64,000 bases of DNA, taken from contig OX485808.1 in NCBI GenBank assembly GCA_950295325.1, positions 37,096,527 to 37,160,526 on the forward strand, given 5' to 3'. Positions 21,747 through 57,045 of this stretch are shown one piece after another. This stretch comes from Polytrichum commune. Lineage: Eukaryota; Streptophyta; Polytrichopsida; Polytrichales; Polytrichaceae. The notes under the pieces were generated by a model. The model ran no database searches. It was not told the DNA's origin and saw nothing but the letters and a program-made list of their open reading frames with translations. Position 1 is the stretch's first letter. Each line of letters starts with the position of its first letter. Both the position numbers and the translations under genes were made by a program.

Positions 21747-22116
21747 GATGGTCTCGCCAAATCACGTCAACCACAGATCTTTGCACCAATTCAGAAGCAC
21801 AACAACCACGAAAAAAAGGTAAAAACTGCAAAAACGAAGACACTTGAGCAAAGTGCAGATGGGAAAGGAATCAAAACCCCCTGTGAATTTATCCGCAGCT
21901 TGAGGGAGCTCAGGCTCAAGCAGCAAAACAAACACAAGGGCATTTCGAAGCCCATGCCGGAATTGCGAAGCCCGTACAGGCAATGCGCCGCCGATCCGTG
22001 GAAATCCGGGCAAATCCGCAACATCGAAAAACACCCACCCCTAAAACCCCAAGACTGGAGCCCCATTGCCTCGGCCACCAACGCCCCTTAAACCCTAAAC
22101 CCAGTCCCTCAGCCCA

Positions 22117-35809: not shown

Positions 35810-37520
35810 TAAAGCCTATATGTAATCCCGAAACGGGCATTACAAGAATTGAAAAGCCCTTGAGGAATACGAAATCCTTTTCAAAGGTGAACACCTTGAC
35901 CGGGCAGTGCGGGCACAGACAAGCCGACCGACACCTATCTCCCCCAAGGACAAGCCCTAGGTTCGCATATGGTTGGTTGGAAATATCCGGTTCACCCAAA
36001 TGCCCCCCCGCTCCCCACTTAGGATTCGGTGGATCATAGGTGGTAGGATGCACCATAACTCAAGTGCTAAGAAGGTCACCCATCCGAGTACTCTTCTAGC
36101 CTTAGGCAGCTTAACCTTGGAGTTCCCACGAGGATGATCTAGTTCCCCACCTCCATTAGAGTAAGGGTTAAATTTTAACTTGCATTGCATCCCACGAGAG
36201 GAAGGTGCGGTTCTCACTATCCCAAATATGATCAACACAATGGAACCCCTTGTAGTAAAGTTCATCTACCCTAGCATAAGGGACTCCATTATCAATGAAT
36301 TCAACCTCTGATGACAACCAAATGTTTGAGTGAAGCAATTCCACGAGGGTTTAGGGGGAGGGGGGTTTGATAAGTGCCTTCAACCGTAGTTTTCCATGCT
36401 TTACTAATGTGACCCCAAGCCTTGGATCCAAAGAATCCTTGGTGTTGCTTAATGATAAACATGTCAAAGCTAATCCCCCAACTTCTTCCTCTTTGTGGGC
36501 TAAACCTTAACACATGTATTAAAATTGAGTCATGTATTAAAATCCCTTTAACTTTCATTAAATTATAAGCACCTAGAGAATAAGCATCCTACATAGTATA
36601 AAACACGCCTAGGACCTTATACTCCCAAGAGTTGAATTCAAAATAGTCCATACGGTATTCACATGAGTGTACAATAGCCCCCGGGGAGGGCTCACTTTCT
36701 GTTTATCACTATCATCTCTATACCAATTTTTTAGGTGAGTCCAAAGATAGGGTCCCGTGTTTTGTTGGGAGATAAGAAATCAAGTCTTCTTAAACAAAAA
36801 AGAGTCTCCAAAAATAATGTGAGAATTTATTTCTATAATATCATTTAATATATGGAATAATCACATGTAACACCCCCCCCCACCCAAATAAACCCTTCGG
36901 ATGCATATGGTTGTCAAAACATACAAAGAGTGAGTCATTCACTTGTCACAATGAATGCAACAAGAACAAATCCACAACTAAACAAAAGAGGCCCTCATGT
37001 CTTTATGTCAATTTTTTAAATATTAAAAGGAAACACTAATTTTGGTGATAAAGGGAGTTGGAAGGTACAATCTCACATGGGTCTTGAAACCGACATTGGA
37101 ATTGAAAGGTTGTCCTTTAAACTTGTCATAGTTATCCTCAAGCCATCCCACATGTGAGCATTCTTACATTCAAGGTACGTTGTCATATGAGTTACATCAA
37201 TCGCCTTTGTCATAGCCTTTGACGCCTTCCACAAGCTATGCTCTTTCAATAATTTAGATAAGGTCGGTTGTTATCACCTAAAGGTGTTTAAGTATGTCAC
37301 ACTATAAGTATGATAAAGGTATTTATCGCCATACATAGTAGAATTGAAGCATCACTATAATTTCCACTTTGTTGTATACATCATATAACACTATATTCGT
37401 TAAATTGAGACTTTTTGGGCATTTTGAGACATTCACATAAATAAGAACAAGGATAAATGGAACACATATTGGAGAAAGTTGTAAGATGCGAACACTTTGT
37501 GTCGGGTATTTAGAACAAGA
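35810..37520. other. No gene; includes dispersed segment D
   Basis: 37080-37290 is related to 62340-62575 (CCGACATTGGAA, GAAAGGTTGTCCTTTA, TTTGTCATAG, TTCCACAAGCTA, AAGGTCGGT). C-runs lie near 36005 and 36872. No coding sequence is supported. Confidence 0.5.
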
Positions 37521-37534
37521 ACCCCATTAATAAC

Positions 37535-37800
37535 TCATATTTGGGATTGTTTAGGATGAGCAATCCAAACCTTAGGCCAAATTGAAGGGGAAATCTTAAA
37601 ACATTCATATTATCGCACACAAAATATGAGATCTTGTATGAATATGTTTTAGGTAGGGCACTCCAAACCCTTAGACCATATTGAAGGGGAACTATGTGAA
37701 CCAATATAATATAACATACAAAATATTCCAAACTCATATTTGTGATGGTTTAGTTAGGGCAATCCAAACCTTGGACCATATTGAAGGGGAAATCATGTGA
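37535..37800. repeat. Three tandem about 100-bp repeats carrying decayed palindromes
   Basis: Each unit has a GTTTAGG...CAATCCAAACC-like core followed by TT(A)GGACCATATTGAAGGGG. Cores start near 37550, 37648 and 37750. The cores align with the palindrome family of 40-51 kb after a few transitions, suggesting older copies. Confidence 0.6.
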
Positions 37801-37934
37801 CACTTATATTATTGCAAAAAAAACATACAAAGTATGGCATGTAAAATGCATAGCATGCTAACACCACACATACATTGGATAGTGCGACCCAAAATGATGT
37901 TGCCTATGGCCCAAAACCCTACGCCTACTATGGC

Positions 37935-38758
37935 CTATCTAGCCTCGGAGATTGCCTCTTTTTCTTTTGCTTTTTTTTCTTTTGCCTCGTTTTCTTTTGC
38001 TGCGGCTTCTTTTGCTCGCATTGCTTCAACATTCCTGAAAATCTCCGCCCCGCGACTATAGCCATTCTTGGGGTGACCGCCATCCATAAGACATTTTGGA
38101 GTCCGTCGGCCGCCCGAAATATACGTCGAAGAATTCGAATACGATGAAGTGGATTGTCTCGCATTTCTGGTCATGGCGTACATACGCTCGAACTCGATGG
38201 ACGCACTAGACCGCATAGGTTTACGGGTGGGAGCAACCTGCAACGCGTCATTGCAAGACCACATGTGTTAGTTTAGGGAGGAAGACCCAAACGTGTCACA
38301 CGATCATTTTTTAAGTGCAAAATGATTGTAATGCGCGGTTAACCATGTTTTAGAGAGGGGGGGGGGTTCACCTTGTCACCGGGGGCGTTCCCATCGGAGT
38401 TGGCAAGGAGGGGCAAGGCGTCCCGCAAAGGAATAGGAAGGGTTCCACTCTTCGTTGGCCGTGCGTCCATCCGCAGCCGCCGTTGAGGTGTAATACTTCC
38501 GCCGGGCCGAGAGGGGGATGTCCGGACGCATTTGCGATTTATGCCCTTGAGCGGCGACGGGGACGGAGATCGCCGTAAGATTTGCTTGGGTGGGGGGCTA
38601 TCGACGACGCCGGCGTCAATAGGCTCCTTGGAGTAGTCAATGGTTGACGCGGCGTTGTAAACGGTCTCGTAGAAGAAGCTCCCCAACTCTGACTCGCTGA
38701 CGATGTCAATCGAGGGCTCCAAACGTTGGCGCAAAAAAGGAAACGAAACAAAACCCAA
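37935..38758 (-). CDS. Small Ser/Pro-rich protein with C-terminal coiled coil, uncharacterised
   Basis: I do not recognise this gene. Exon a is about 38758-38372 and exon b is 38237-37935. The 134-nt intron has GTGAAC / GCGTTGCAG borders and joins phase 0 to phase 0 (NAPGDK joined to VAPTRK). The first part contains an ESELGSFFYETVYNA segment and Ser/Pro/Arg-rich low complexity (LRRSPSPSPLK). Exon b ends in a Lys/Glu/Ala-rich helix beginning at GAEIFRNVEAMRAKE and stops with TAG. The frame at 38758 has no ATG, so the true start lies in an upstream exon or the gene is joined to the FCP1-like gene 115 bp upstream, with the same strand. A decayed homologue of exon b lies at 59735-59865, so the family is multicopy. 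Function unknown. Confidence 0.55.
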
Positions 38759-38831
38759 AGGAAGAGGGTTTGCTAGTGCGCGTGAAAATCAAGATACATA
38801 TGAAGCATATATTACACAAAGTGGGCGGGCG

Positions 38832-38834
<3 letters not shown>

Positions 38835-38864
<30 letters not shown>
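38835..38864. repeat. (AC)n microsatellite
   Basis: About 15 AC units just downstream of the stop of the FCP1-like gene. Confidence 0.9.
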
Positions 38865-38868
<4 letters not shown>

Positions 38869-38872
38869 TGCC

Positions 38873-39622
38873 TCAAATGAGCTTGTTAAATTTCGCGTGA
38901 GAGAACAACTCTCTGTACAAATGGTCTCGTGGATCCAAGTATCTCTCGCCTATCGGATTATTCCTAACAAAATTGTTTACAGGTAGTCCGCTTCCCCTGA
39001 GCGCCTGGAGGTATTTACTAAGGTCTAACAAAAATCGGTCCTGGACCTTCTCGACCGTCCACGTAGGGCAAACTATTAAGTTGGCCGTCGGGTTCAACAT
39101 GTTCTTTGCGGCGCTGTCGTCCACCATGAGCGTGTTCTCCCGGGTGGGACGGACGTCGTAGGGGACACCTATCAATGACGGACACTGGTCCCAAAAAATG
39201 GGCTTCAAGACCTTGAGGTATTGGGGGGAAGCGGGGTTGTTTGGTTTTTTGACGGCTTTGCCGTCCGGTGTGTACAATATTCTACAGGCTTCCTGTGCTA
39301 GGACCATGCAGGGGGGCTCGATGCCCTTGAAGATGAACTCCACGACTGCATTGGTGTTCTCGGCCTTCATGGAGCTCCACACGACCACCCACCATCGTTG
39401 TTGGGTGATCTGGAGGAAGGTCCGAAGCCACGGGCGGAGGTGAACTAGCTTGCTCTTTATGAACGTGGGCGGCCCGTCGTAATTCGCGTCCTCGGGCTTG
39501 CAAAAGGGCACCGTGGGGGTCCTCGGGCAATGAACGCATTGGACGAGGACCCCGTTGAGGTCTAACACCAGGAACCGGGTCTTAGGCGGCAAAGGTGGAA
39601 CGGGTAAAATGGGGGGGACCAT
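38873..39622 (-). CDS. FCP1/SCP-like HAD phosphatase, plant DLNG class
   Basis: The predicted protein of 249 aa belongs to the FCP1-homology branch of the HAD superfamily (NLI-interacting-factor-like phosphatases). Motif I is DLNGVLV at 21-27. The first Asp (D21) is present, but the usual second Asp is Asn (N23), as in the plant class with DLNGLL. LRPWLRTFL, motif II VVWSS (80-84), a lysine around KVLKP (137-140) and motif IV LMVDDSAAKN (165-174, D168-D169) follow in normal order. The C-terminus continues to LFSHAKFNKLI and stops. An in-frame extension to an acceptor at 39686-39688 (21 more codons) suggests an upstream exon I cannot place. In canonical enzymes the second Asp is a general acid/base, so the N23 form may be weakly active or substrate-binding only. 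Neighbouring genes on both sides are leftward. Confidence 0.75.
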   Translation of the reverse strand: MVPPILPVPPLPPKTRFLVLDLNGVLVQCVHCPRTPTVPFCKPEDANYDGPPTFIKSKLVHLRPWLRTFLQITQQRWWVVVWSSMKAENTNAVVEFIFKGIEPPCMVLAQEACRILYTPDGKAVKKPNNPASPQYLKVLKPIFWDQCPSLIGVPYDVRPTRENTLMVDDSAAKNMLNPTANLIVCPTWTVEKVQDRFLLDLSKYLQALRGSGLPVNNFVRNNPIGERYLDPRDHLYRELFSHAKFNKLI

Positions 39623-39689
39623 CGCGCTACCTTCCTCGCTTCTTGGAGAGGCCCGGCGGGGAGCCGCGACGCTATGCTCCGATCCCTGT

Positions 39690-40155
39690 GGAGACGAGCG
39701 ACATAAGGCGGGGGAAGACTATGTCATGCTATGTCCACTTAAAGTGAATACAATATTTTCTGTGAAAAATACAAGAACCACTATGCATAGGCGGCCATAC
39801 AAATGCAAGAGGGAAAAATATACATTTGAACACGAAAACAAACATAAGGGCACAAAATAATAATTTTATTGTTTGCAATGCTCTATGTACAAAATGCCTA
39901 GGGGTGCGAAGCCGCGTTGAACGATCCGTTCAAACTATCCTAATTCAACATCTACAAAATTGTGTGCACGCCTCCAAGTTCGAGTAAAATCGTGGGACGG
40001 GCGACGTTAGTGATCGTCGCGGGGGGGGGGGGCTGAAGGGATGCGAGAGCGGATGGACGGGGTGGGGGCAGTTCCTCCTAGCTAGGGGGGACACGACCAC
40101 GGCAACAAGACAATAGACCAGGAGTTTGGGTCGAGCGACCCAAACTGAGGAGGTC
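39690..40155. other. Spacer between two leftward genes
   Basis: G-rich DNA with a 12-G run at 40021-40032 and one perfect palindrome at 40124-40145. It may hold an upstream exon of the FCP1-like gene. Confidence 0.4.
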
Positions 40156-40541
40156 TCAGTGTATTACCTCTCCCTGGTCATGCCTGGACGCCATGGAAGC
40201 CTCCACCGCCTCCGCTTGTCGTTCTCTCTTGCCACCGCCTTCTCCGACGATGTCAGCACCCCTCTCCTGCAAGCGCTCAGTGTCAGGACCTTCTCCTAAC
40301 CCAACCTCCGCATGTGCATCATGCATAGGTTCATCGATTGGGATAGGAGTAGAGGTATCACCAGGCCCTCGAGGACCTTCAACATCAGGCATGGGTGTGT
40401 CTCTTTCAGACCCATGCTGGTCCATTGAAGACTGAGCGGTAACGGGGTTTGGGTCGGCCGACCCAAACTCTCGTGCATCATGAGATTGGCCTTGTTGCAC
40501 TGTAAGGGGGGGGGGGGCGGGTTTGGGTCGGACGACCCAAA
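40124..40541. repeat. Three palindromes, two of them within coding sequence
   Basis: Palindromes start at 40124, 40447 and 40520, with central tetranucleotides GAGC, GGCC and GGAC between GTTTGGGTC and GACCCAAAC. The last two are read in the uncharacterised gene as FGSADPN and FGSSDPN. Confidence 0.9.
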
Positions 40542-43500
40542 CATGTGGGGGTCGTCCTGCTGATGGGGCAGGGGGATCACCAGGGGCGGCCGAAGTGGTG
40601 GGGGGGTCACAGGTCTAGAAGACCCGGGAAGACGCCATATATTGGGGTCATCCGCTTGTTGAACCGGCGGATACGGACGGACGTGGGGGGGAACCATGTG
40701 CTGAAAGCTGAAGGAGGATTGCGGCACGGGCTGCGGAGGAATGTTCTGGGGAGGGAAGCCGGGGGGCAAGTGTGGAAATGAGCCCGGGGGAGCCACCACC
40801 AAACCCTGCGCCCACATGCCTCGAATCACTTGCGTGATCAAGTCCGCACTAGTTGGAGGTTGCGCCAATGCCCGCAGTCGCTCTTGCTCCAATAAGAGAG
40901 CCCTTAGTTCTGCCACTTCGTTCCGCACTGAGGGTTCTTCAGCAGCGGCCTTTTGCAAGCGGACGCGTTGTTCTTCGTCCCTTAACATCTTCTCGTTGGC
41001 TTCTTGCACGGTGAGGACTTCCGGCTTCACCTTCACCATCCCTGCGAAGGCACCTGGAGAGGGAGGGTCCGACCTGAGCCGTTTCGCGAGCTCCATGTCG
41101 TCCTCGTCTTCGCTGCTAATGGCAATTGTCTCCTCGATGGCATAGTCGCCATAGAGTTTCTTGCCTTTTAGTTTCCTCCTCTCCCTGAACGCGGCAGTCG
41201 CATCCCTGGAGTACATGTCGCGGGCATCATCAACCGTCAGGACGGGCACCAACTTACTTTGTGGAGTTGCTACCCGCATTGCCTTCTTTCGTTGAGGGGC
41301 TTCAGATTCCTGAGTGAAGCCTGTTCCCCCTTCTTCGACCTCGCCCTCCACTTTAGCCTCTTCTTCCTCCTCTTCCACCTCCTCATCCTCCTCCTCCTCC
41401 TCCCCCTCCTCGTCACGCGGTCGCCGAGAGGATGTGCCTGGATGCACTTGGACCAGAGGCTCTGGTACAGCAACTGGAACCCTTATGGCCAACTCTTCAG
41501 GGTTGACACGCCTCGCCTTATCCAGCGGGCTCTCACCCCCTTCAACAGTCTCCTCGGCGTAGCTCCCAGGGATCCAGTCTAGTATATCCATCTTCTTCGC
41601 CAATGATTTTTGGGCCTTGTAGAATTGGATGTCATTAAGGTCTACATAGCTGTACACGTTCAGCCCTAGCATCTGCAGAAATCCCACCGGATGTTATTAT
41701 ATGGCATAACATGTGATTCCACCGAAAAGGGGAAGTACATACAAGACCTAATATCAATTGCAAAGGTTATAGTTTGGGTCGAGCGACCCAAACTAGCATC
41801 AGTGTTAGTTTGGGTCGAGCGACCCAAACTAGCATCGGTGTTAGTTTGGGTCGCTCGACCCAAACTATGAAAACAATTATGGTAAGGAGTTATGACCGCC
41901 GGTGCAACAATGTAGTGAGACTTAGACACCGCATACTCAGGCTGCAATTTCCTCACAATTTCATACACCTGCTCTGCTCTCCTATCCTCTACTATCCACA
42001 GCCACATATCGACCTCCCTAAGCTTAGGGCTTGCATACTCCACGAACTTCGACATGAAGGGCTCGTAGAAGGGTGTACCCATTGTGCCCTCAAACGTACT
42101 CCCAGGAATGCTCCGGAAGTCTATTATACCAAAGGGGAACCGGTCCGCTGCTCTTACTCGTATTTCTTTCCTGGAATCAAGGTCGGGCCATCCCTGGATT
42201 TTAATAGGGTCAAAAGCGACAAGGTTGAAATGCGCATCCCCCTCAAAACTTACAATCTTCTTCTCCTTTATAAAGTTTGAGAAGGCACGCGTCGAGTGTT
42301 CTGGAAGAGCCAGGTTCTTCCCACCCTTCACCAGTTTTGACTTTAGGAAGTCTTATCCTGCCTCCCTGATCAGAGCTGCCATGGATGCACTGGTGAAGTT
42401 GTATTCAGCCTTGAACGCTCTCCAGTTCACCTCGTTCACCTCGTTCACCTCGTCATCGACAAAAATGTTCTTTTCCGGGATTAGCTTCTGCAGCTCCTGG
42501 ACGATCGTTGTTTTCTTCTTCCTATTCTCCGCCCATTCCTTCATTGTGTAGCATGAAGGAACAAAGGATTTCGGCTTGGTGAAGATTATTTTGGGGTACA
42601 CCCAAAATCTCTTAGGGGTCGGGTTGTTGTGCAAGATGTGCGTTGCCGCCTTCCCCATTTCCGCCTCCGAAAGACCCTGCAGACTTCTAAAGAATTCTCT
42701 CATGAGAGGCTTCATCGCCTTGAATCGAGAGGACGAGTTGAAGAGGTTGCATGTGTCAGGATCCATGAGATCCCCTGTCTCGTGTTTCTCAAACACTGTC
42801 TTCCACTTCTGCCAAACCATGTCGGATGATGTAATCAAGTAGATCTCTCCTCTTAGCTCATTGTACTTCTTTTGCTTGTGACTTGAATTGTCAATTGAGG
42901 AGAACTTGTTTATCATTTGGTATTTGAAAAGCTGCACAAGAGCATAGAATGCGTGTTAATTCTCAATATGTTGTTTCCAAACAAAGAAGAAAAATGATGA
43001 ACAACAAACTGCGTAGACAAACACAAACTAAAACACAAGGTTTGGGTCGAGCGACCCAAACTGTATGAAGAAACACAAGGTTTGGGTCGAGCGATCCAAA
43101 CTGTATGAAGAAACGCAAGGTTTGGGTCGAGCGACCCAAACTGTATGAAGAAACGCAAAGTTTGGGTCGAGCGACCCAAACTGTATGAAGAAACCCAAAG
43201 TTTGGGTCGAGCGACCCAAACTGTATGAAGAAACGCAAAGTTTGGGTCGAGCGACCCAAACTGTATGAAGAAACCCAAAGTTTGGGTCGAGCGACCCAAA
43301 CTCTATTTGAGAAACAATGCTCACCTCCCACTTTGGATTCTTATCTTTTGCATTCTCCCTTTCCTTGGGAGGCCGGCCGTAGAACTCCCACACATCCCGC
43401 GATGCCATGATGTTCCTAATCCAAGAAGCTTGATATGCCCGCTTCTTGTTATTCATGTTGAAATAGCGGGAGATATCGCTCAGCCGGGTTTCGTCGTCCG

Positions 43501-44653
43501 ACCACACGACCAATGCCTTCCATACCTTCAATTTTTCCTTTAGACCATTAGGATCATTCCACTCCGTCATCAGTTGAAGTTTCTTTGAAGCTTCAACACT
43601 GTGCTGACCGTCAATCAGCCAAAAATCGCCTTTCTCTATAGAAGGCCACATATCCGGTGTAGGCATTCTTTTGTGTCCCTGAGGCATGACAACAATAGTC
43701 TGCCTATCATGTTTAAACTGGTCGCTCACCATCTGGGCGATTAACCAATCAACATACGCATCTTCCTTTGCCCGAACGCACTTCTCTGGTGGCGCTAGGT
43801 GGCATTGTGCGATGTTGACATCAAACTTGAATTCTCTGCCCATGAAAAAACAATGTAAACACTTGGTGTCGAAATTGTTGAGTATTTTCTGGATCTCCGA
43901 TGGCTCCACTCCTTCCCCGGGCTTGGACATACGTAGCTCCGGTGAAACAGGCTTATCTGTCATGGCAGATACTGACTCTCTCGGCCTCTTAGATGGTGTC
44001 GTCTGCCGGCTTTGTGATGGCGTCGGTGTTTCACTATCAGCAGGAGTTGCCGTAGGTGTTGTTCTCCTCGAGTCAGCTGGAACCGGTCGGGGCTTCCTCA
44101 TTGTTTGAGGTCTTGACGACCCTGCGCCCTCTTCAACAGTCGCCTTGCGCCTCACAGCTTGTTGAGATTTTGACTTGCTTTGCTGGGTCTTGTTTATTGC
44201 GTTGATTGCCTGCTTAAGTTTAGTGAACCTGGTTGCAACCTTCGTGTTTGAAATGATCGCATCTATGAAGATTGTATCCGGTTTAACAATGTCTGGCTCA
44301 GCGCAGGATTCCTTCACGTATACCGGATCGAATGGCTCGGCTTGCTCATACATGAACATGTGCACATTTTCCAGAGAAGAGTTTTCCAGGATGACGTCAA
44401 CGTGCTCTCCTAGAGCATGAACTGATGCCACCTCCCATCCCGTCAAAGCATCCCATGTGTGTTGCTCCTCCGTGCCAACCTTCAAAACAAGGAGGATTTT
44501 GAATTGAGCTGCCTTTACTACAAGAAAGGACCATGCAATTACAATGTCTTCTTTTGCTACGTAGGATTGGTTTTTAGGAGTTTCGTGCTCCTGCCAGATC
44601 GCGTCTGGTGCCGGCTTGAACTATCGTTCTCCAGGTCTTTTCTTGGGGGGCAT
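40156..44653 (-). CDS. Large uncharacterised protein with DGQHS motif; interrupted frame
   Basis: I do not recognise a named family. Exon 1 (44653-43325, ATG directly after an acceptor-like TTGCAG) contains a Ser/Thr/Pro-rich linker, then a domain with CLHCFFMG, VVMPQGHKRMP, FWLIDGQHSVEAS (DGQHS at about 348-352) and RYFNMNNKKRAYQ. The DGQHS context resembles ParB/DGQHR-type domains, an inference only. Exon 2 starts at 42931 after GTGCAG and ends near 41900; exon 3 starts at 41672 after TTCTGCAG. Exon 3 encodes acidic (E/D)n, coiled-coil and Pro-rich segments. The introns hold 7 and 3 palindromes. Breaks: TAG at 44623-44621, TAA at 42355-42353 (both in otherwise open frame), and a 12-G run at 40506-40517 across which the coding frame shifts to reach a natural-looking tail ending at 40156. 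Likely a decaying or misassembled copy. Confidence 0.55.
41772..41865. repeat. Palindrome array, 36-bp period, three copies
   Basis: Palindromes start at 41772, 41808 and 41844, joined by TAGCATC.GTGTTA spacers, inside an intron or exon edge of the uncharacterised leftward gene. The third has the complementary centre GCTC. Confidence 0.92.
43040..43301. repeat. Palindrome array, exact 40-bp period, seven copies
   Basis: TTTGGG starts at 43041, 43081, 43121, 43161, 43201, 43241 and 43281. All have centre GAGC. The spacer is TGTATGAAGAAAC.CAA.G. One arm has a C-to-T change (43081 copy). The array fills the first intron of the uncharacterised leftward gene, just beyond its donor at 43324. Confidence 0.95.
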
Positions 44654-44669
44654 CTGCAAGTAGAAATAC

Positions 44670-45560
44670 ATATGTTAGTTTCGGTCGGGCGACCCAAATT
44701 CTTTCAAATCATATAGGCTTATGTCTGGGTTTAGTAACATTTATATATGGGGTTACTTTTCACAGGTTTGGGTCGAACAACCCAAACCTGTGCCTACAAT
44801 GGCTAATGAATAATATATTATTTGGCTACGAAAACCAATCTTTAAGTTCATGGATACAACAATCATCACGAGCTACTGTTCTAGTTGTGGGTCATTTCAT
44901 TATTGCTTGGGTGTTTGAGTTGTTGTTTATAAGTGTAAGTATTGTTCGTAAGCAGTAAAAATTTACGCAGAGTTTGGGTCGTTCAACCCAAACTTTGTAG
45001 CGGTATGGAATGATCGGCTATGGCCTTAGATCATACCCAAGATGATGATTACCTAAATTATGAATTACCATTTCATGCGCTGTTTGGGTCGAACGACCCA
45101 AACTCTGCAGATGGATTGGGTCGAGCGACCCAAAGCATGTGCTAGTTTGGGTCGAGCGACCCAAACTCTGCAGATGGATTGGGTCGATAGGGTTAGATAT
45201 TCACCCAAGATGATGATTAAATTAATTATAAATGAACATTTGATGCGGAGTTTGGCTAAACCCTAGACCCAAACAATGCTTATGGTTTGGGTCGAGCGAC
45301 CCAAACTCTGCAGATGGATTGGCGCCCACGACCCAAACCATCTTTAGAGTTTGGGTCGAACGACCCAAACCATCTTTAGAGTTTGGGTCGAATGACCCAA
45401 ACCATCTTTAGAGTTTGGGTCGAACGACCCAAACCATCTTTAGAGTTTGGGTCGAACGATCCAAACCAGCTGGAGAGTTTGGGTCGCTCTACCCAAACCA
45501 GCTGCAGAGTTTAGTGTTTTAGGGTTTCAAACTGAAGTTTGGGTCGTCTCTCGAAACACT
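44670..45560. repeat. Scattered palindromes and a 32-bp-period array
   Basis: Single copies occur near 44675, 44765, 44972, 45081, 45116, 45146 and 45285 with centres including GGGC, GAAC, GTTC and GAGC. From 45349 five copies follow at exact 32-bp spacing (45349, 45381, 45413, 45445, 45477) with spacer CATCTTTAGA. The block lies upstream of the leftward gene cluster. Confidence 0.9.
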
Positions 45561-46129
45561 TTTGATTCCAGAGACCTTTATAATGTGTTTACGCAGCATA
45601 TACAATGCTTATGCATTGTAGATGCTGCGAAACTCTAAAGAAATTGACACACATAAAGAAGTTGAAGAAATCACCTTGCTTTGCAAACTACACAACAAGC
45701 TGCTGTTGGAAGCAGTTCTAACAAGCTAGTCTTGGAAGCTGATTCTAGAAAGGATTGGATATCAGAAAACTAAGAACGCCTCACAAACATTCACTCTGAA
45801 TTGAAGAAGCTTTCACAAACATTCACTCAGAATTAAACAATCCCTCACAAACATTCATTCTGAATGTAACAAGTGTTTACAAACATGAACAAAAAAGCTA
45901 TCTGAAGGCCACACATGCACACTGATTTTCGAACAATCATTCTAATTCCGAAATCACTCTACACTCACACATGAATGTTTCTAAGACCAGGAAGAACTGA
46001 CACAACCACTTTGAAACAACACTCACACTCCAAAACAACAAAGACGTTCTGAAATGGCTAAAATGTATAGACTTTAATACAAAAACAAACCCTAAACTCA
46101 TACTACACTCAGAACTCGGTCAATGCGCA

Positions 46130-46505
46130 CTCAATGAACAACAAAATAGATCAAAAGAAGAGGAGGAGTGAAAGAGAGAATGAGATAATGATGAAGAGGG
46201 AAGGAGAGAGGGAATGCGAGTTCGACAAGGAGAGAGAGAATGCAAAGGAGGAGGCGGCGCTTTCAAGAGCGGCGGCGCCTCCAGAAAGTATGAGGAACGT
46301 ACAAAGGAGGAGGAGCTTGGAGCGGAGGAGAGAGAAGGAGAAAGTGCGGAGGGGAGAGTGAAAGGGGGAAGGTCACTCAAGGGCGGGACCCATTCGGGCC
46401 GGCGCCTTTCGTGTCCGTTCGGCTCATGGCCGCCACGTGTCACGGGGCGCTCCATGGCCCAAACGAATACACAATCTAAGCCATTGGAGAGCCCCAGGCC
46501 CATCG
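46130..46505 (-). promoter_or_regulatory. Promoter-like GC/purine-rich island, possibly for the leftward genes
   Basis: A GA-rich tract (46150-46250, on minus a CT-rich leader-like strand) is followed by GC-rich DNA with a G-box CACGTG at 46434-46439 and GGCCC motifs. It differs sharply from the AT-rich surroundings. The minus-strand ORF here is Ser/Pro low complexity without a domain, so I read it as a leader or promoter rather than a gene. Confidence 0.3.
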
Positions 46506-46516
46506 ACGGTCGATAG

Positions 46517-47406
46517 GCCTCGCAGGTGGGTATCCTTTAGCCACCTATCCCATACCATCCTTGAGGATACTAAAAAACCTTTATAGCCTAAGGTTTTTAA
46601 TTTAATGGTCCCCCGATGGATTTGCTAATATCAAATAATGAAACTGTATTGGTTTTGTAATTTTAGTAATCTACACATATGCATGAATCGAGAATGATAG
46701 ATACTAGACTAAGAGGAGTATTTAATAATTATATTGCAATCCTCGTAGGCAATTACATAATGGAATAATATAACTATGGTAACCATTTACACAATGAATG
46801 GTTTCGAGTTATATATTGTAATTATCTATGAAGGTTGTTGGTAAAGGACAATGCTATAGCCTACGATGGATCCGTTAACACATACCATTGAACTAAATCT
46901 AATTATACAAGTTTATGTAGTGTCATTCATTATAATATGGAATTATGCAATATTAAGTGTTGACAACTTAATATCATTGTTGTTTGCGAAAAGCAACAAA
47001 GATGTTGTTTGATTTATAGCATGATGGAACATTAACATACTTATTTACAAGTTTACATATTTATGAGATACAAATATATTGAAGCGGGTGTTTTTGCTGA
47101 AGAACCCAATTAAGAACTCATATGAAGATGGTTTAGGTAGGACGACCCAAACATTAGACAATGTTGTTGTTGTTCATATATTTAGTTGAGACAAGATAAA
47201 GTCTACAAATATTGAATATAGTGATAGTAAATGAGAGAAGCACCATGTATACAAATATGAAGCTATCAAATACTAATATGTGGAGTTCAACATTATATGA
47301 AGCCATTTAAGCAATCACTTTGTTGTTGGATGATCCCTCCACATATATTAAACAACATATCTTATTAGGAAATGAGGCACAAATTACAGTAGATGGTGTT
47401 CTATAT
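46517..47406. other. Intergenic, AT-rich, no gene seen
   Basis: Contains one partly decayed palindrome at about 47129-47150 (GTTTAGG..GACGACCCAAAC). No coding sequence. Confidence 0.45.
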
Positions 47407-47414
47407 GGAAGCCA

Positions 47415-47963
47415 CACGGGTAGGTCACTCTAAGGCATTTTTGTGCACCACGTGCGGCTCAGGGTTTTTTGTTTTGGGGCTATTTACCTTCAAGGGTTGA
47501 ATTAAAGCCTCCCTATAATTACTTGAATTTCAAAAATGGCCCATTTGTTTGCACCCTTCCATTACTTATATTGTCCAAGTCACTGCAATTTTTTGTACTC
47601 TATATTCCTTTTAAGTAATAAAAGCTAATCTACTTCCTGTTAAGGGAAACCATGGAAACAAAGAAGGGTGCAAACAATAATATCATTGCAAACAAAGTTA
47701 TGAAGAAAACACATAGGAGACCATAGCAAACATTATACTAAACATACCTTCTAGGAACCTTATATTCAGCCCCTATATTAATTTTACAAAAAAATAATGG
47801 CCCACATTTTATGTCCATCTAACTTACTTATAATGGGATTGTCTACATTTAATGGCCCCTTCATTATTTGGAATTCCTTTATAATTTTTATTTCAAATGA
47901 TTTCAATCCTCTCTATATTATGCCGCACGTCGTTTTTAAAATGCACTAAGTGACCTACCCGTG
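47415..47963. mobile_element. MITE with 8-bp TSD, family CACGGGTAG, copy 2
   Basis: The 549-bp element has ends CACGGGTAGGTCACT and AGTGACCTACCCGTG. The TSDs are GGAAGCCA (47407-47414) and GGAAGCAA (47964-47971), 7 of 8 identical. It shares nearly all of its interior with the 30702-31328 copy but lacks about 80 bp of internal sequence present there. Confidence 0.88.
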
Positions 47964-47987
47964 GGAAGCAACCCTGAACAACTACGA

Positions 47988-48033
47988 GGGTGTAGGGTGT
48001 AGGGTGTAGGGTGTAGGGTTTAGGGTTTAGGGT
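47988..48033. repeat. Interstitial telomere-like tract
   Basis: (TGTAGGG) units are followed by TTTAGGG repeats and TATATAA. It starts 25 bp beyond the MITE right end. TTTAGGG is the plant telomere repeat; TGTAGGG is a one-base variant. Confidence 0.7.
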
Positions 48034-48039
48034 ATATAA

Positions 48040-49900
48040 ATGTGTCTTGTTGCACTCGAAGCCATAAATGAATGGCGCATAGGTCAAATGAGGGGGCCAA
48101 GTCGCTTGTGGTTCTAAAAACAAATGTATATAGATATCACAATAGTCTAATTCATGAACATGAACGTTGGTTACATTTCATGTTATGTTTGTTATGTATG
48201 TTATGTTACGTCGTAGATGCGTTCATATTTAGTGTATAAATCTCTAAATATCTTATTTAGTGTAGTGACACTAGAACACACCAACATGTATTTAAGGACA
48301 TGTTCTGCTCAACTTGCATTGAATAGATACAACTATATATGTTTAGATTTTTCATCAAACATTTGTTAAAACAAATAAAGTTGACTACATTTTTTTTGGC
48401 AAGCCAAATCAATAAAAACTATAGGTACAAAACACAACTACAATAAGTATGATATTTAGTGTTTGATACACTAAATACAAGTGAATACACAATATATCAA
48501 TAACCATATGAAAGTAATAAACATTAAATATAAGCTATAGTAATATGTGACATTGACATGTTTGAATTTAGTGTTAGTAAGGATGTGAAAAGAAGAAATA
48601 TACGTGAGAGTAGAAGGTAGCAACACATTTACTTCTAACACTAACTGTCATAGGATTGAAAATTAATGTTGAGCATGTAAGGGTGGTAACCATAGTCCGC
48701 CAAGAGCCTAAGGCTAGTGTAAATGCAGCCTACAAAATTTGTGACTTAGCCTATAAAATTTTGAAAGTGTAGGACAAAGAGCCTATGGACAATTTTAAAA
48801 CATAGGATATCAACCTATGTGGTAAAAAACATGTAGGAAATTTTGCCTACAAAGTTTTTAAAAGAGCGGATTTTAGCCATTCATCCTTCTTCAAATTGGG
48901 AAATTAGTTGGCCTAAGTACATATCTTTAGGCTAATACTCGGGGCTCTTGAGTGGCACATAGGCGGATATCAATAATAGCCCTGACTCCCTCCCCGTCGA
49001 TCTTTACAAATACCACAGCCCAAGCCCCATCACCGCATAGAGGTTGAATCAGAAGATGGTGAGGACTTTCACCCTTAAACTCATTTGAATTTTAGCAACC
49101 TTTCATAACTTATAATCAACTCTTTAAAAAAGAGTTGGTTAATCCTTGGCCTTCAAACGTGGTGAAGGGCTTAGCCAGGTTCAATTCCTGCCAAGGATAC
49201 CACTTAGTACTCAAATTTTGAATTTAAAGCCTACAACATTAAAAGATATGAAGGATTTTAACCTACTAAAAATTAGTTTTAAAGGCAATTGGCAGGTAAC
49301 TTAAAAACTCAAAAGGTTTTCAACTTACAAAAATTTGATATTGTAGGATGCAACCTATGCCATGAGGGAAATAACCTATGCCCTTTTAAAGAGGTAGGCA
49401 ATTAACCTCAATAACTTCGAAAACTTTTCGGACACTGGTGGTAACAACACTACATATAATCAAATCCACACATCATATTTTGTGTAGTTATTTAATAGCG
49501 GAATTAAGAGGTTAGTTGTCCAAGGTCATTTGATGGTTGGCGCCACGAAGAGGCAAGCTAAATATGGATGCTCTATTACCAACAAGAAGCGGGAAATTCT
49601 GTCAGAAGGTTTGAACTTAGGTTTAGGGTTTACGTTCGGGCGGGAAAGGGATCCAAAGAGGAAGGCCAAGGCGGAGGCGGGTAGTATAAAGTACCAAACC
49701 CCCCAAACTTTGCTCCTTTTTTCTCATCTCTCCATTCTGAAATGGTTGCAAGCTCTCTCAAGTAGTGGTGGAGTGCAAGGTTCGTGTATGCATCCGTTGA
49801 TGAGTAGCTAATTACAACAGCCATGCACGGCCTGAATTCTTCCAATTAGTATCCACGTAGCTGAATATGGAAGATTACCGCAATTTAAGGCGGAATTTGC
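48040..49900. other. Intergenic; contains a tRNA-like foldback
   Basis: No gene. A CCTACAAA-/CCTATAAA-rich stretch lies at 48720-49420. 49142-49202 has a tRNA-like terminal stem, a B-box-like GGTTCAATTCC and an encoded CCA (see findings). A GC-rich patch at 49620-49690 precedes the palindrome array. Confidence 0.4.
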
Positions 49901-49904
49901 GGAA

Positions 49905-50853
49905 TGTTTGGGTCGCTCGACCCAAACCCACCCCCATAGTGAGGTTTGGGTCGAGCGACCCAAACCCACCCCTATCACGGGCTGGGCCTGGATTAGCAAG
50001 CCCATCCTGTCACGAGGTTTGGGTCGCTCGACCCAAACCCACCCCCTCTCACAGGCTGGGCCTGGATTAGCAGGCCCATCCTGTAACGAGGTTTGGGTCG
50101 CTCGACCCAAACACACCTCCATTGTGAGGTTTGGGTCGAGCGACCCAAACCCACCCCTGTCACGGGTTGGGCCTGGATTAGCAGGCCCATCCTGTCACGA
50201 GGTTTGGGTCGCTCGACCCAAACCCACCTCCATTATGAGGTTTGGGTCGAGCGACCCAAACCCACCGCTATCACGCGCTGGGCCTGGATTGCCAGGCCCA
50301 TCCTGTCATGAGGTTTGGGTCGCACGACCCAAACACACCTCCATTGTGAGGTTTGGGGCGAGCGACCCAAACCCACCCCTGTCAGGGGTTGGGCCTGGAT
50401 TAGCAGGCCCATCCTGTCACGAGGTTTGGGTCGAGCGACCCAAACCCACCCCTATCAAGGGCTAGGTCTGGATTACCAGGCCCATCCTGTCACGAGGTTT
50501 GGGTCGAGCGACCCAAACCCACCCCTATCAAGGGCTGGGTCTGGATTACCAGGCCCATCCTGTCACGAGGTTTGGGTCGCTCGACCCAAACACACCTCCA
50601 TTGTGAGGTTTGGGTCGAGCGACCCAAACCCACCTCCATTGTGAGGTTTGGGTCGAGCGACCCAAACCCACCTCCATTGTGAGGTTTGGGTCGAGCGACC
50701 CAAACCCACCTCCATTGTGAGGTTTGGGTCGAGCGACCCAAACCCACCTCCATTGTGAGGTTTGGGTCGAGCGACCCAAACCCACCCCTGTCACGGGTTG
50801 GGCCTGGATTAGCAGGCCCATCCTATCACGAGGTTTGGGTTGCTCGACCCAAA
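49905..50853. repeat. Palindrome array, 18 copies, alternating with a second hairpin
   Basis: Eighteen copies of the GTTTGGGTCG palindrome lie in about 950 bp. In the left two thirds and at the right end they alternate with a second inverted repeat, GGGCCTG..(loop)..CAGGCCC, set in CACCCCTGTCACGGG and CCATCCTGTCACGAGG context. Between 50608 and 50760 the palindromes run at exact 38-bp spacing with spacer CCACCTCCATTGTGAG. Both GAGC and GCTC centres occur. The array ends about 190 bp upstream of the DUF7869-type gene. Confidence 0.95.
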
Positions 50854-51046
50854 CCCACCCTCATGCACACAATGGGGATGTGCATAGATGGATCCTGAAT
50901 AAACTGTTGTGCGCTCCATCTTTTTGGAACCCATCGATATAATATTCATACAACATGTGTTATGATAAGGTTTCTGTGTTTTTCTATTGGACCCTATAGC
51001 TTTTGTCAATTCTTTACAAGGTTCCATGTTCATGTGTGTAGGCAAA

Positions 51047-54000
51047 ATGGATGGGTATACTGGAAGAGGGTATTCGTCTGGAGAAGACATGGCCACTTGG
51101 CCATCTGTATCTGAGGAAGAGCTAGACATTGTCGGGGAGGCTACTATGGATGAGAGTTCAGATGAAGAGCATTTCGATATACCTTCGCGTTCTGTACCGG
51201 ACTGTCCCATTCCAGAGTGTGCCGTGCTTTCAAGAGCTTCATGGATGAATTTGGATGTGTTACTTCTTAATGACAATGGGGTTGTTGTGGCGGAGGGTAT
51301 CTGTCGTAACACCCATCCACAAGATTGCATTGATCAAAATCCGCTTGGCACCGAGGACGTTGGGATTGTCATATTGGAGTCACTCGTTCCTTCTGAGGTG
51401 GATCCCACTCATAGGTTCTCCCTCCGCAGGTGGCCATTGAGGAATGTCACGACTGATGGAGTTAGCTTGCGTGAACATGAGCAACGACACATGTAACTCG
51501 AAAAGGAAATGCAATCAAACATGCGGCCACGCAAGGGTCAAAGAAAGTACGATACTGTGGCACGTCCTTCTCCATCTGCAACTGATTGTAAACGTCAAAG
51601 GCTGCTTGGGGAGGAGTCCATAAGAGAAGTTGCCACAAAGGATTGTTGTGTGCATTGTTGTTGCCAATTGTTTCCAAGGGATAAATTGAAGGCCATCCGT
51701 GAAGAAATGTGGCTTGGAGATTTTCGTCTAAGATCCACAAAAAAACTTGATGTCCATAGGGCAATACATGTGAATGGAACGGGTCGCAAGGTAATCACCA
51801 TTGAAAGCATAGACGTGTGTTGTAAGGCATGGTACACCATTTACGGTGTGTCGAAGGCGGACTTCTATAGACAAGTTACTTATGCCAAGGAAGGCCGCCG
51901 GTCCCGTCACCATGGGAACGTGGGTTTAAAGAAACCTAGGGAAGCAACAAGGCAAGCAACGGCAACTCTAGCAACCATCATTGTCCCCCTTGCTGATGCA
52001 ATGCCGCACAAAACACGCACACTCACAACCGGTGAAAAGGTTGTGGAGAAAGTTCTTCCCACAGGCACAAAATGGAAAGACATATTGTTGGACGTTAATG
52101 CAGTTGGCGAGAAGATTGGGTTGGAGCCAATTTCATTGTCAAAATTAAGTGCAATCAAGAAACAAAACTTTAGCGAATACATTACAAAAAGACGAGGGGA
52201 CAAATTTGCCAGGTGCTCTAATTGCGAGAAGTTGAAGCGCCTCCGGGATGCACACACGATGGGTACCGAGTCATATGCAGCGCATCAATTGAACTATTTC
52301 AAGCACGTAAACATGCAAGAGGCACACCGTAATGATTACTACACAAATAGAGCTTTGTCCATCTCCAGGCCCTTGGAGGTTCTTACGGTCATCCATGACA
52401 AAATGGACCATGCCAAAACAGCCTCCCCATGTTTTGCAAATCGAATCAAGGCCACGGATGGGTTTTTTAAGTTGCCTGTATCGGTTACAGGTGAACTTCG
52501 AAACAATGTCATGACATACCCTAAATGTTGTGGTTTTTTATTCCGTGATGTACTGGAGAACATGGATTCCTTCATAATGGTTTATTCATACATAGATGCT
52601 AATCACGTTGGGTTGGCATTGCAGGAATGATTGCACATGGACACGGTGATGTCAAGTTTGCTTATTATGCTCTTGATTTGTATCCAACGGATTCAAACCA
52701 CACGATAGGATCATTTGCAAGGCTTTTACGTGATTTAGAGAAACCACCAGCCTATTCTTCAGGATTGTTATTTGAGAACACGGGTTCAACACCTTTATAT
52801 GAAGCGGTGTTGGATGGAAAAGATGTATGCTTGCATTCGTTGCCCGAGCCACCCAATGAACCCGTGATTGCCAAGAAGTTGCCTCCAACTTTGCGTGTCC
52901 AATTGGACAATTGTGCCAAGGACAATAAAAGCAGATATGTATTTGCATATTGGTCGTTGTTGGTTGCGAAAGGCATTTTCAAGGAGGTTTTTGTGTCCTT
53001 CCTATTGGTAGGCCACACGCACGATGATATTGATGCATCTTTTGGGCGGTGGAGCATGAAGTTGCGGGAGGAGGATTTTCCTACAATCCCATTATTGATG
53101 AAGTCGTACATGGATTTGGAGAATGTTCCCGTCATCCCCCATATGATTGAGGAGGTGCCAGACTTCAAGGCATTTATAGAACCTTATATTCGAAGTGGAG
53201 CTCACCGATTGATCGGGCATACGAAGGCACAACAATTCCGGTTCTACATGCGTGACGATGGTGTCCCGGCCATGCAATACAAGTTGTTGTGCACGACACA
53301 AGACTGGAGCCCGCCGGAGGGTCTTCTTGTGTGGCGCGTGGATGCGGATGGGAAGACCATGTTACCGGATGGGGAGCCTAGCCCTTGTAAGCCAATAGCC
53401 ATGAAGAATTTGGAGGATATTTTGAAAGGTATATCAGGCTTCATACAATATTGGGAGAGTTTGAAGATAGCGGATGTTGGCGGATCATGTTGGCATCGTT
53501 ATGGGAGTTGGATACATTATTGGACACGTGTTCGTGCCGCCTTGGTAGACCTCCACCAAGATAGCCCTCATACTTTGATGTCGCAACCCTTGCTAACCCC
53601 CTTAGCAATCTTGCCAATTTTCAATTCTAGCAAAGGTTACGAGCGCTAACCATTCGCATTCCGCCATGCTAATGGTTAGCTCATCCTACCCCGGACCTTA
53701 TAGTTCATAGGAGGGAACCAACCCTCCTACTTTGTTTTAGGGACTCACCCCTTAATCGGTAACCCATTCCTAGATGTGGACTTCCATCCATGGAAGTCCA
53801 ATCCCATGTTGATCATCGCGTTGCCGGAGCAACACTACAACAACCCGAACCATACTAGGCAACTATGGCCTCACATTGGGCCAATGCCCATGGAGGCCGT
53901 GCCGTTCGGCCTCGGGTGGGTGAGGCCACACCACCTCACCCATATAAGCCTCTAGGACTTCACGCGGGGCCCCTACCCCACCGTCAACCAACCTCTTGTC

Positions 54001-55089
54001 TCTCTACCAAGAGTTGGGGCCAAGTGGACATTTTCCTTTAGCTGCTGGGCCTAGAACCCCCCCAGCAGCTTCAGACCATCATAACTTCCTTTTATGATGT
54101 CTGATCATAACAACCAACCACTCCATGTTCATCTACGCTTCACGTAGATGCCGATGGACTCCTCACTTGCTCAATTTGAGCAAGCCTTGAGGAAGTTATG
54201 CCTGTTTGAACCTTGGCAGTCCCGGGAATCACTCCCAGGCACTGCTGTACCAGGGCGCTGTCCCGGGACAGCGCCCCACTCAAATGGCCATAACTCCTAG
54301 CTCACACCTCCGATTGAGGTGTTCTTGAGCTTTCTAGAATCACCACGCCATGAGCTACGCATAACTCATGGCCTTACCCTTGTGCCTCCTAATCTTCGTG
54401 GGTGGGAGGCGTTCCCAACGCCCGGGGCCCTCACCCACACTAGGATCACTTGGGCCCTCTCACCAAGGGCGCCACAAGTCCCGGGTGTCACTCCGGGGTC
54501 CCCCTTGTGCCCATGGTGTTTCGGGCACTCCTCATGGAGAGGTGCGCGACATTTGAGGCATGGATTTTGGCCACAAACACGAGTCGATGTACAAGCTTTA
54601 GAGGCTAGTCTTTTGGGAAATGGAGAGGTTCGAGAGGAGTTTGATGTGGACGACCATTACGTGGGGCCTGCTAGTAGTCGTCCGCCACCATCTTTCCGCA
54701 TTGCAGTGGATTGTCATGAAGGATATATGCTCATTTTGCGTCCTGGAGACGAGACATATGTGAAGCCAGTGTGGGTGGCAAGAGCTTTGTCCAAACCCAA
54801 TTTTGTAACTTCCAGCCCTCATTTTCGACAAATACAAGTGGAGTACTACCGACCGACGGCAAGGAATGAAGATGTGATTCGGCATTATACAGGCTGGGAT
54901 ACAAACCCTAACTTTCGGTGGAAGGTGGATTCTGAGCACGGTCCATCTTGGGTAGATACAGATTCCATATTCATAGCATGGAAACCACGGAAAAACCATA
55001 GTGGATCAGTGTCCATCCCTCAAAAGTACATAACTTTTGCAAAAGACAACCTTGCTCGGATCGCAGAAGAAGCAACCCACGTTGAATGA
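51047..55089 (+). CDS. DUF7869-type protein, three exons, one in-frame TAA
   Basis: I assemble exons 51047-52532, 52625-53635 and 54596-55089; phases agree and total 997 codons. The 92-nt intron (GTTTTT/TTGCAG) and the 960-nt intron (GTTACG/ACAAG) each join codons at phase 1. An acceptor-like TGTGTAG precedes the ATG, so a 5' UTR intron is likely. The N-terminal third is acidic. Then come Cys clusters (CCVHCCC and FARCSNCEKLK), a motif VIHDKMDHAKTASP, then LRVQLDNCAKDNKSRYVFAYW and FLLVGHTHDDID, the signature run of DUF7869 proteins. The spaced Asp residues look RNase H/DDE-like, which is my inference. A C-terminal domain (PVWVARALSKPNF, VEYYRPT) follows. TAA at 51494-51496 interrupts exon 1 between EQRHM and LEKEMQ in an open frame; ATG 51509 could restart. 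Multicopy, TE-like character is suspected. Confidence 0.7.
54253..54276. repeat. Perfect 24-bp GC-rich palindrome
   Basis: Arms GGGCGCTGTCCC and GGGACAGCGCCC abut without a spacer, inside the long second intron of the DUF7869-type gene. The surrounding 53.7-54.6 kb is GC-rich, unlike flanking DNA. Confidence 0.9.
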
Positions 55090-57045
55090 GAAGTTGGTAG
55101 GATTGTGTTAGCATGATTATAGTGTAAACAGTAATTCTACGAACATATATTACTCATATGTGTGCTCTTCAAAATTGGGGCAGAGTTTGGGTAGAACTTA
55201 CGAATACTATATTGTTTTGGAGTTGGATGAATATCCATTTACTATATTTCAATACAAATGTGAAGTTCATTTTTTTATTAAGTTTGGGACTAAATTGTCC
55301 ATTGAAAAAATATGCATTTATTACATGCACTTTGTATGTTGCAATGTCTATATTCTATGGAGCATGCTAATAATAGAAATCATTATATATATATTTTTGG
55401 GTGAAACTTGTTTGGAGTGCTCTACCCAATGTGTTTTTGTTGATGAAATTGGTGTTGAGTGCTCTACCATATGTGCTTATGTCCGCACATCATAGGTGTG
55501 GGATATTAGAACATTTAATATATTTGAGATTGTTGACAATATAGTTTCAGGCATCTTCATGTTGTTTGATCCATATATTAATTTGAGACTAGAGAAAGTC
55601 TCAATTTAACGAATATAGTGTTATATGTAAGAAACAACAATTGAGACATCAACTATCTAATATTGTTGGTGTTCAGAATGTGACAAAGCTTTTTATTATA
55701 GATTGTACGCATATTCTTAATGCGTGTCAAATATTCCATGTTTCATTCAAAATCTTACAGTTTCTAACATTCTCAAGTAATTTGGAGAACCTCCAAATTC
55801 TATTCCAAAACATTTTCATCACATGTAAGAAATAATAACATTGAAGGCGTTTTGCCGCTGTTGAAATTGAAGAACCTCTCTTTCCCCTTGATTTGATTAC
55901 ATTTAATAGATTCAATTTGATATTTCATCGAGGTCATCACATAGCTTCACGGTCATAAGTTATATTTGTTTCCATATTACAGGTCTACATTGATATTGAA
56001 TTTTGAATTGAAATGTTTGGATTATAGTTTAGAAATAGTTGTGTAAAGAGTACGTTGTTGACTTTGTCACACTTAGTACAAAAAGTGATTCCATAATGTG
56101 CAATCATCTTATAGGCCCACCATAATACGGTGAAAATTATAATGGTATGCATAACATTACTCAACACTTAGTGCTCATTCAATGGGCCCTCAAAATATAA
56201 TAGTCGGATGCTCAGAAAGTTGTGCATGGAGACTTAGATTTTAATTAAGATCCATGCATCCAACTGTCATATTCCAAGGGCCCACATCACCAAGTAACAC
56301 CATGTGATGCATTAGAAAGAGCAAAACAAATTTTGTATATATATATGCATGACACTATTATTTAGTGAAGAATGCATTTTGGTTTGTAGGAGTTTTGAAT
56401 AAGGGGTCTCACACCATACAAAAGGCTTACCTTTCCAAAGAAGAGTGCGCTACCCCCTTACCATGTAGTCGTTTATGACTAGCAATTTGAATCAAAATTT
56501 CACATGGAATTACACTAAATATAATACTTAGTGTCACTTACTATTTGGAGTTACACAATGCTACATCTTCTTACTAATAAAGTTCATCTTTTACCAAGTA
56601 AAGATGACAATGTTCTATAATGTTCAAACAACCAATATGACCTTTGTTGAGAAAATAATGAGATATACATCAAATAGTGAGTGACGATAAATACAATATT
56701 TAGTGTAGTAATCCCCTTCCACCATTTGACTGCTTCAAGGAAAAATATTAAAATATTAAAAAATATATACATGAATACACATATATATATATATATGTAT
56801 AGATGAAAGGCGCTTAGGTCAAGAAGTTAAAAAATGAGATTAAAGTTATGTAGCATAAGAATATATAAAATTTATATAAGTTTTAGGATATGAAACTTAC
56901 TAGATATACTTCATAGTTAAACCTGATAAAGACCGATTTAAATTCAATGTAAATTTACAAATCATACCAAACATGGGGCAAACGTGTCGGCCTATCTAGC
57001 CATACCATCAAAGTGAAGTAAAAAACTCTACATCTTCAATGAATA
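55090..57045. other. Intergenic, AT-rich, no gene seen
   Basis: 3' flank of the DUF7869-type gene and AT-rich DNA with a TA microsatellite near 56778-56795. 55500-55630 loosely resembles 47140-47240. Confidence 0.45.

Follow-up and report, generated by a model that had tools for sequence, protein, structure and literature searches.

Palindrome arrays in a Sola1-like transposon of the moss Polytrichum commune: candidate loading sites of an element-encoded ParB-methyltransferase-like protein

Introduction

The Sola1 element Sola1-1_Ec32 of Ectocarpus, 21.5 kb long, carries a gene for a ParB-like and methyltransferase protein opposite its transposase gene, and its authors suggest that proteins of this type attach to the element that encodes them and modify it, with green and red algal cases cited (PMC12477816); the protein type is therefore already known. 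Self-recognition is also described for the VANDAL transposons of Arabidopsis, whose VANC motif is tandemly repeated within introns and upstream and varies from family to family (PMC5735166), and VirB, a member of the ParB family, is reported to load at a palindrome resembling parS and then to counteract silencing (PMC10653881). Here we describe a 64-kb stretch of the Polytrichum commune genome (assembly GCA_950295325.1, contig OX485808.1, positions 37,096,527 to 37,160,526; hereafter the window, to which all coordinates refer unless a contig is named). It contains a large transposon, likened below to Sola1, with a ParB-methyltransferase-like gene and a DUF7869 gene on opposite strands, and with arrays of a 10+2+10 palindrome that is probably the loading site of the fusion protein encoded by that same transposon.

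Results

Palindromes in the window

Perfect palindromes of the form GTTTGGGTCG-NN-CGACCCAAAC (20 of 20 arm bases matched) were found 33 times in the window, at 40124-50781; with eight further sites at one arm mismatch and three at two, there are 44 sites at no more than two mismatches, spanning 40124-50854. No site at up to four mismatches arose in 20 replicates of a first-order Markov control. The family of about 50 copies proposed in the first-pass annotation is real, its number having been set slightly high, and the proposed two arms around a variable central dinucleotide hold as a plan of 10+2+10 with a free centre. Only forms with four to six mismatches occur in the window outside the block (37549, 37647, 37748, 37873, 38271 and also 55410), in agreement with the remark that almost none but decayed forms lie elsewhere; the Markov control yields 0.3 sites at five mismatches and 0.75 at six per 64 kb.

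Most copies are tandem, in arrays that differ in spacer and in period (36, 40, 32, 37/38 and 73/74 bp). Three single palindromes lie at 40124..40542, that at 40124 directly 3' of the stop codon of the ParB-like gene and those at 40447 and 40521 within its exon 3; intron 2 holds an array of three copies with a 36-bp period (41770..41867), and intron 1 one of seven copies with a 40-bp period (43031..43306). The leader and 5' region (44678..45512) have 12 sites at up to two mismatches, including a 32-bp-period array at 45084-45512; 18 sites spaced at 37/38 and 73/74 bp lie 5' of the DUF7869 gene (49906..50854), and one site with two mismatches (47131) stands isolated between arrays. Coding sequence is avoided: in our gene model only the two exon 3 copies are coding (2 of 44), as against 43% of the element (binomial 9e-9, a value that overstates the avoidance because array copies are treated as independent).

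Conservation of sites among subfamilies

Elements of three further subfamilies (B, C and D; protein identity to the window element 77%, 77% and 81%, respectively) contain 23, 31 and 27 perfect palindromes within the 16.7 kb that was read for every one of them, and no other perfect 10+2+10 palindrome was found in these reads. The palindromes occupy the same blocks as in the window: the 3' end of the gene, with three single palindromes at the place matching window 40124..40542; intron 2; intron 1; the sequence just before the start codon; the 5' array; and the region before the DUF7869 gene. Spacers are largely replaced across the subfamilies, and the arrays of intron 1 and those ahead of the DUF7869 gene vary in period; the 36-bp period of the intron 2 array is kept in all four subfamilies, and A and D have similar spacers and a 32-bp period in their 5' arrays. 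Pooled pairwise divergence in the regular arrays of the four elements is 0.012 for arms (a lower bound, since choosing sites by arm match biases the value down), 0.243 for the centre and 0.088 for spacers; the contrast between centre and spacers is free of this bias.

For the arms, these values support the earlier suggestion that selection, gene conversion or copying acts on the inverted repeat. The first-pass annotation had also allowed that the sequence might simply be part of one known large satellite or LTR element. In part this holds, as the palindrome does sit in a large transposon, but its being a passenger of one big repeat is an insufficient explanation, because it stays while the spacers of the subfamilies are largely replaced.

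Near the left end of the element (37532-37826) lies a tandem repeat of about 100 bp with a degenerate dyad like GTTTAGGTAGGGCAATCCAAAC, four to six mismatches from the palindrome; forms with four mismatches are also present in B, C and D. This dyad is perhaps a subterminal version of the palindrome.

Other palindrome families in the genome

Genome-wide (407.8 Mb), GTTTGGGTCG-NN-CGACCCAAAC has 9,231 perfect copies, with none for the reversed control; among the 100 places listed the copies are clustered, mostly in blocks of about 10 kb. The scan for the arms that had been proposed thus places the palindrome well beyond the window. The genome count, the element copies and the subfamily comparison speak against both a single large satellite and an expansion limited to the window, and these readings were rejected.

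Were the palindrome read by the ParB-like protein, other palindromes would be expected in diverged families of the ParB gene. With P0048 as query, 90 of 864 candidates were scored, three diverged ParB genes were chosen and intron 1 of each was read (L038, L039, L040). All three introns contain 10+2+10 palindromes, each with one at no more than one mismatch (0.045-0.05 in shuffles) and one or two weaker copies. The palindrome TTTACGAACG-NN-CGTTCGTAAA occurs in L038 (one mismatch) and L040 (perfect), which form one family; CTTCCTCTCG-NN-CGAGAGGAAG occurs in L039. These two types have 2,909 and 157 copies genome-wide, respectively (reversed control 0), and CG adjoins the 2-bp centre in all three arm types (a CG-NN-CG plan). 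The 157-copy type forms six clusters among the places listed, two of which flank ParB exons (C1:57785807-57786616 and C1:76781910-76782659), the other four having no scored exon to set beside them. The genome has no copy of a hybrid palindrome that joins the first left arm to the second right arm. That the families differ in both arms together is a second ground for selection, gene conversion or copying acting on the inverted repeat itself. The palindrome is absent from a viral and a prokaryotic contig collection, both of which may omit records near this genome.

A caution applies to L039, where a longer inverted repeat, which may be a foldback element, encloses the palindromes at 150-560.

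Palindromes in relatives from other datasets

In predicted proteins from other datasets, gene callers extended the exons of relatives into intron sequence, so that palindromes appear translated. Among the relatives of exons 1 and 2, 41 of 102 contain a total of 55 translated palindromes, of which 51 lie just past the exon end, three before the exon and one at an unclear position; the reversed control gave none and shuffled controls a mean of at most 0.01, and none was found in 120 DUF7869 relatives. Arm variants were present in 12 relatives. The right arm is masked by codon degeneracy in nine of these; in all three with both arms readable (P0177, P0191 and P0194; fitting GTTTCGGTCG, GTTTCGGGCG and GTTTGGGCCG) both arms are changed. 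Mixed arms were seen in P0009, P0015 and a second copy in P0177. The palindrome with GTTTCGGGCG arms has no copy in the genome of the window.

The ParB-methyltransferase-like gene

The gene lies on the minus strand and comprises three exons in our model. Exon 1 (43325..44653) encodes a weakly PH/PTB-like N-terminal part and a C-terminal part with a ParB/sulfiredoxin fold and a DGQHS motif; exon 2 (41890..42931) encodes the methyltransferase-like part and, in the window, is missing about 300 bp at its 3' end that are present in other copies; exon 3 (40156..41672) encodes an acidic, proline-rich tail. In the window copy, exons 1 and 2 have one in-frame stop each, and the frame of exon 3 is broken at a homopolymer. 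The two exon 3 palindromes are translated in intact copies as FGSSDPN and FGSADPN; among ten sequences tested, the frame is open across both in L009, L013, L025, B and D, and is lost earlier in L011, L015 and L019 and at the homopolymer in the window, while C gave no anchor match.

Fold prediction assigned a ParB/Srx fold to the ParB part and, less surely, a methyltransferase fold to the part encoded by exon 2. The ParB motif reads GQHS, a difference from bacterial ParB in the comparison with box II; DFRNIP and NVFGGSKP are present in the A2 consensus and may correspond to a catalytic DPPY/W-like motif. Domain searches of this gene by sequence alone were uninformative in Pfam, NCBIfam and the PDB; PHROGs returned a weak ParB-like match. 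Judged from these predicted folds, the encoded protein is likely to bind DNA and, less surely, to methylate it.

The DUF7869 gene

The DUF7869 gene (PF25273; 50969..53578, plus strand), with a frame that is broken in the window copy, probably encodes the transposase; the Pfam match (E 7.4e-44) covers 52603-53649. Its probable 3' continuation (54552..55089, plus strand) is joined straight to 53578 in L013, L015, L019, C and D. The intervening 973 bp (53579-54551), missing from these five, look like an insertion. A literature search returned no mention of DUF7869.

The transposon and its ends

The whole element measures 18,236 bp (37387..55622), has ends in common with other copies and is flanked on both sides by a 4-bp duplication, ATAT. 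The left terminal inverted repeat (37387..37414, plus strand; 28 bp, starting AACACTATATTCG) is identical at 28 positions to the reverse complement of the right one (55595..55622, minus strand). All four elements with both ends read have 4-bp target duplications (window, ATAT; L013, TCAC; L015, ATAG; L019, CCAT). At least 31 copies of exon 1 in the genome are full-length and 94-100% identical, counting that of the window (97 of 1,158 candidates scored). Ten copies with exon 1 98-99% identical were taken for element comparison: similarity to the window begins at 37380-37387 in seven, and the right end is the same terminal repeat in all three with the right side read.

Sola transposons make a 4-bp target duplication; the element may be likened to a large Sola1 DNA transposon by this duplication and by its gene layout, as distinct from transposase phylogeny. 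CACTA (En/Spm) elements have termini starting CACTA and a 3-bp target duplication; here the ends contain CACTA, yet the terminus AACACTA and the 4-bp duplication rule against that class. Placement among the VANDAL/MULE elements was likewise rejected, the duplication being 4 bp as against the expected 8-11 bp given in a passage of PMC6446971.

An open reading frame for a phosphatase of the NLI-interacting-factor-like type (PF03031; 38873..39718, minus strand; Pfam E 3e-15) lies inside the element, in a region common to other copies, and could be captured cargo. Elsewhere in the window, a set of open reading frames at 18917-21761 (minus strand) was judged by eye to be hAT-like transposase.

Discussion

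The evidence in hand for the palindrome as loading site, which we consider the probable reading, comprises its membership of the transposon, the fixed positions, the replacement of spacers, the family-specific symmetric arms, the predicted ParB fold and, less surely, the methyltransferase fold. From these we infer protein binding, DNA modification and anti-silencing, and the presence of different palindromes of the same design in related transposons suggests that the protein reads the sites to recognise its own DNA. A protein dimer would read both 10-bp arms across the free 2-bp centre, and with arrays placed in introns, leaders and intergenic parts, dense loading would be possible for the protein on its own element only; the arm sequence being private to each transposon family, each protein would therefore recognise its own family only. 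Once loaded, the protein would methylate the DNA of the element or, by shielding it from host silencing, keep both genes expressed; the outcome of loading may be methylation, anti-silencing, gene control or help in transposition. A eukaryotic self-recognition system of the ParB/parS type, in which the protein loads at its own palindromes, spreads, and by adenine (or N4-cytosine) methylation marks the element or lifts silencing, protein and palindrome co-diverging into private site codes, is a tentative extension, possible but not what we would expect on balance.

It is unlikely that the palindromes are instead binding sites of the DUF7869 transposase or of another host or element protein, serving cutting or transposition as repeats at internal or subterminal positions do in other DNA transposons. 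The biggest array does lie directly upstream of the DUF7869 gene, but the 44 sites are at least 2.7 kb from the left and at least 4.7 kb from the right end, many are within introns of the ParB-like gene, and the differing arms turned up by tracking the divergence of that gene; moreover, DUF7869 DNA is 85%, 95% and 92% identical to that of the window element in B, C and D, respectively, while most of the spacer sequence of the arrays has been replaced.

It appears improbable that the palindrome is a selfish or neutral minisatellite, spread by hairpin slippage or gene conversion and read by no protein. Such a minisatellite would account for tandem arrays of changing period and for apparent flipping: in 18 of 60 pairs of neighbouring palindromes with differing centres (in the window, B, C and D), one centre is the exact reverse complement of the other (AG/CT, GT/AC), compared with about 12% under random pairing of centres, which is suggestive of palindromes that sometimes invert. 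Among orthologous sites of subfamily A copies, 3 of 25 are polymorphic and none of the three is a flip. Conversion that keeps 20 arm bases amid spacer replacement is hard to obtain, however, and against such a minisatellite also stand the occupation of identical positions in four subfamilies, the recurrence of the 10+2+10 plan and CG-NN-CG core with other outer arms, and the avoidance of coding sequence.

Action of transcript hairpins in splicing, RNA stability or small-RNA production is very improbable: many copies do lie in the introns and leader of the ParB-like gene and a stem of 9-10 bp is possible for each, but the large array upstream of the DUF7869 gene is outside the ParB gene and there was no Rfam match at gathering thresholds, so that the stem with tetraloop proposed at first is unsupported and a dyad in DNA, recognised by a dimer, is the better fit.

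With the palindrome as loading site, the arrays supply candidate targets for ParB-methyltransferase proteins that are testable directly, and three palindrome families in one genome form a built-in specificity control. If this reading is true, self-recognition of the VANDAL type arose again with a DNA-binding protein of bacterial type.

Comparison with known systems

The nearest working analogue would be VANC of the Arabidopsis VANDALs, in which we know of no ParB or methyltransferase-like domains. Both systems would have an element-encoded protein that reads a short, fast-changing tandem motif (PMC5735166, PMC10398659); they differ in that the VANC21 motif is non-palindromic and of nine bases (YAGTATTAY) and that VANDALs belong to the MULEs and end differently. 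Retrotransposons that have captured cytosine methyltransferases would share a transposon-borne DNA methyltransferase, in another element class and with another enzyme type, and the passages concerned mention no site arrays (PMC5890265). Bacterial ParB/parS, KorB and VirB share the ParB fold and palindromic sites; unlike these, the present system belongs to a eukaryotic transposon, has a fused methyltransferase-like part and has dozens of sites per element. Among the papers listed in literature searches there was no report of target sites for ParB-methyltransferase proteins, and of 37 papers matching the literal arm sequence the 10 listed were unrelated by title. Sola1-1_Ec32 resembles the present element in being about 20 kb long with an accessory gene, ParB-like and methyltransferase-like, opposite the transposase gene; the passages that describe it name no binding site, and 'palindrom' is absent from the main text (PMC12477816). 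New in the present description are the arrays of sites, with a fixed layout and with symmetric arms that are specific to each family.
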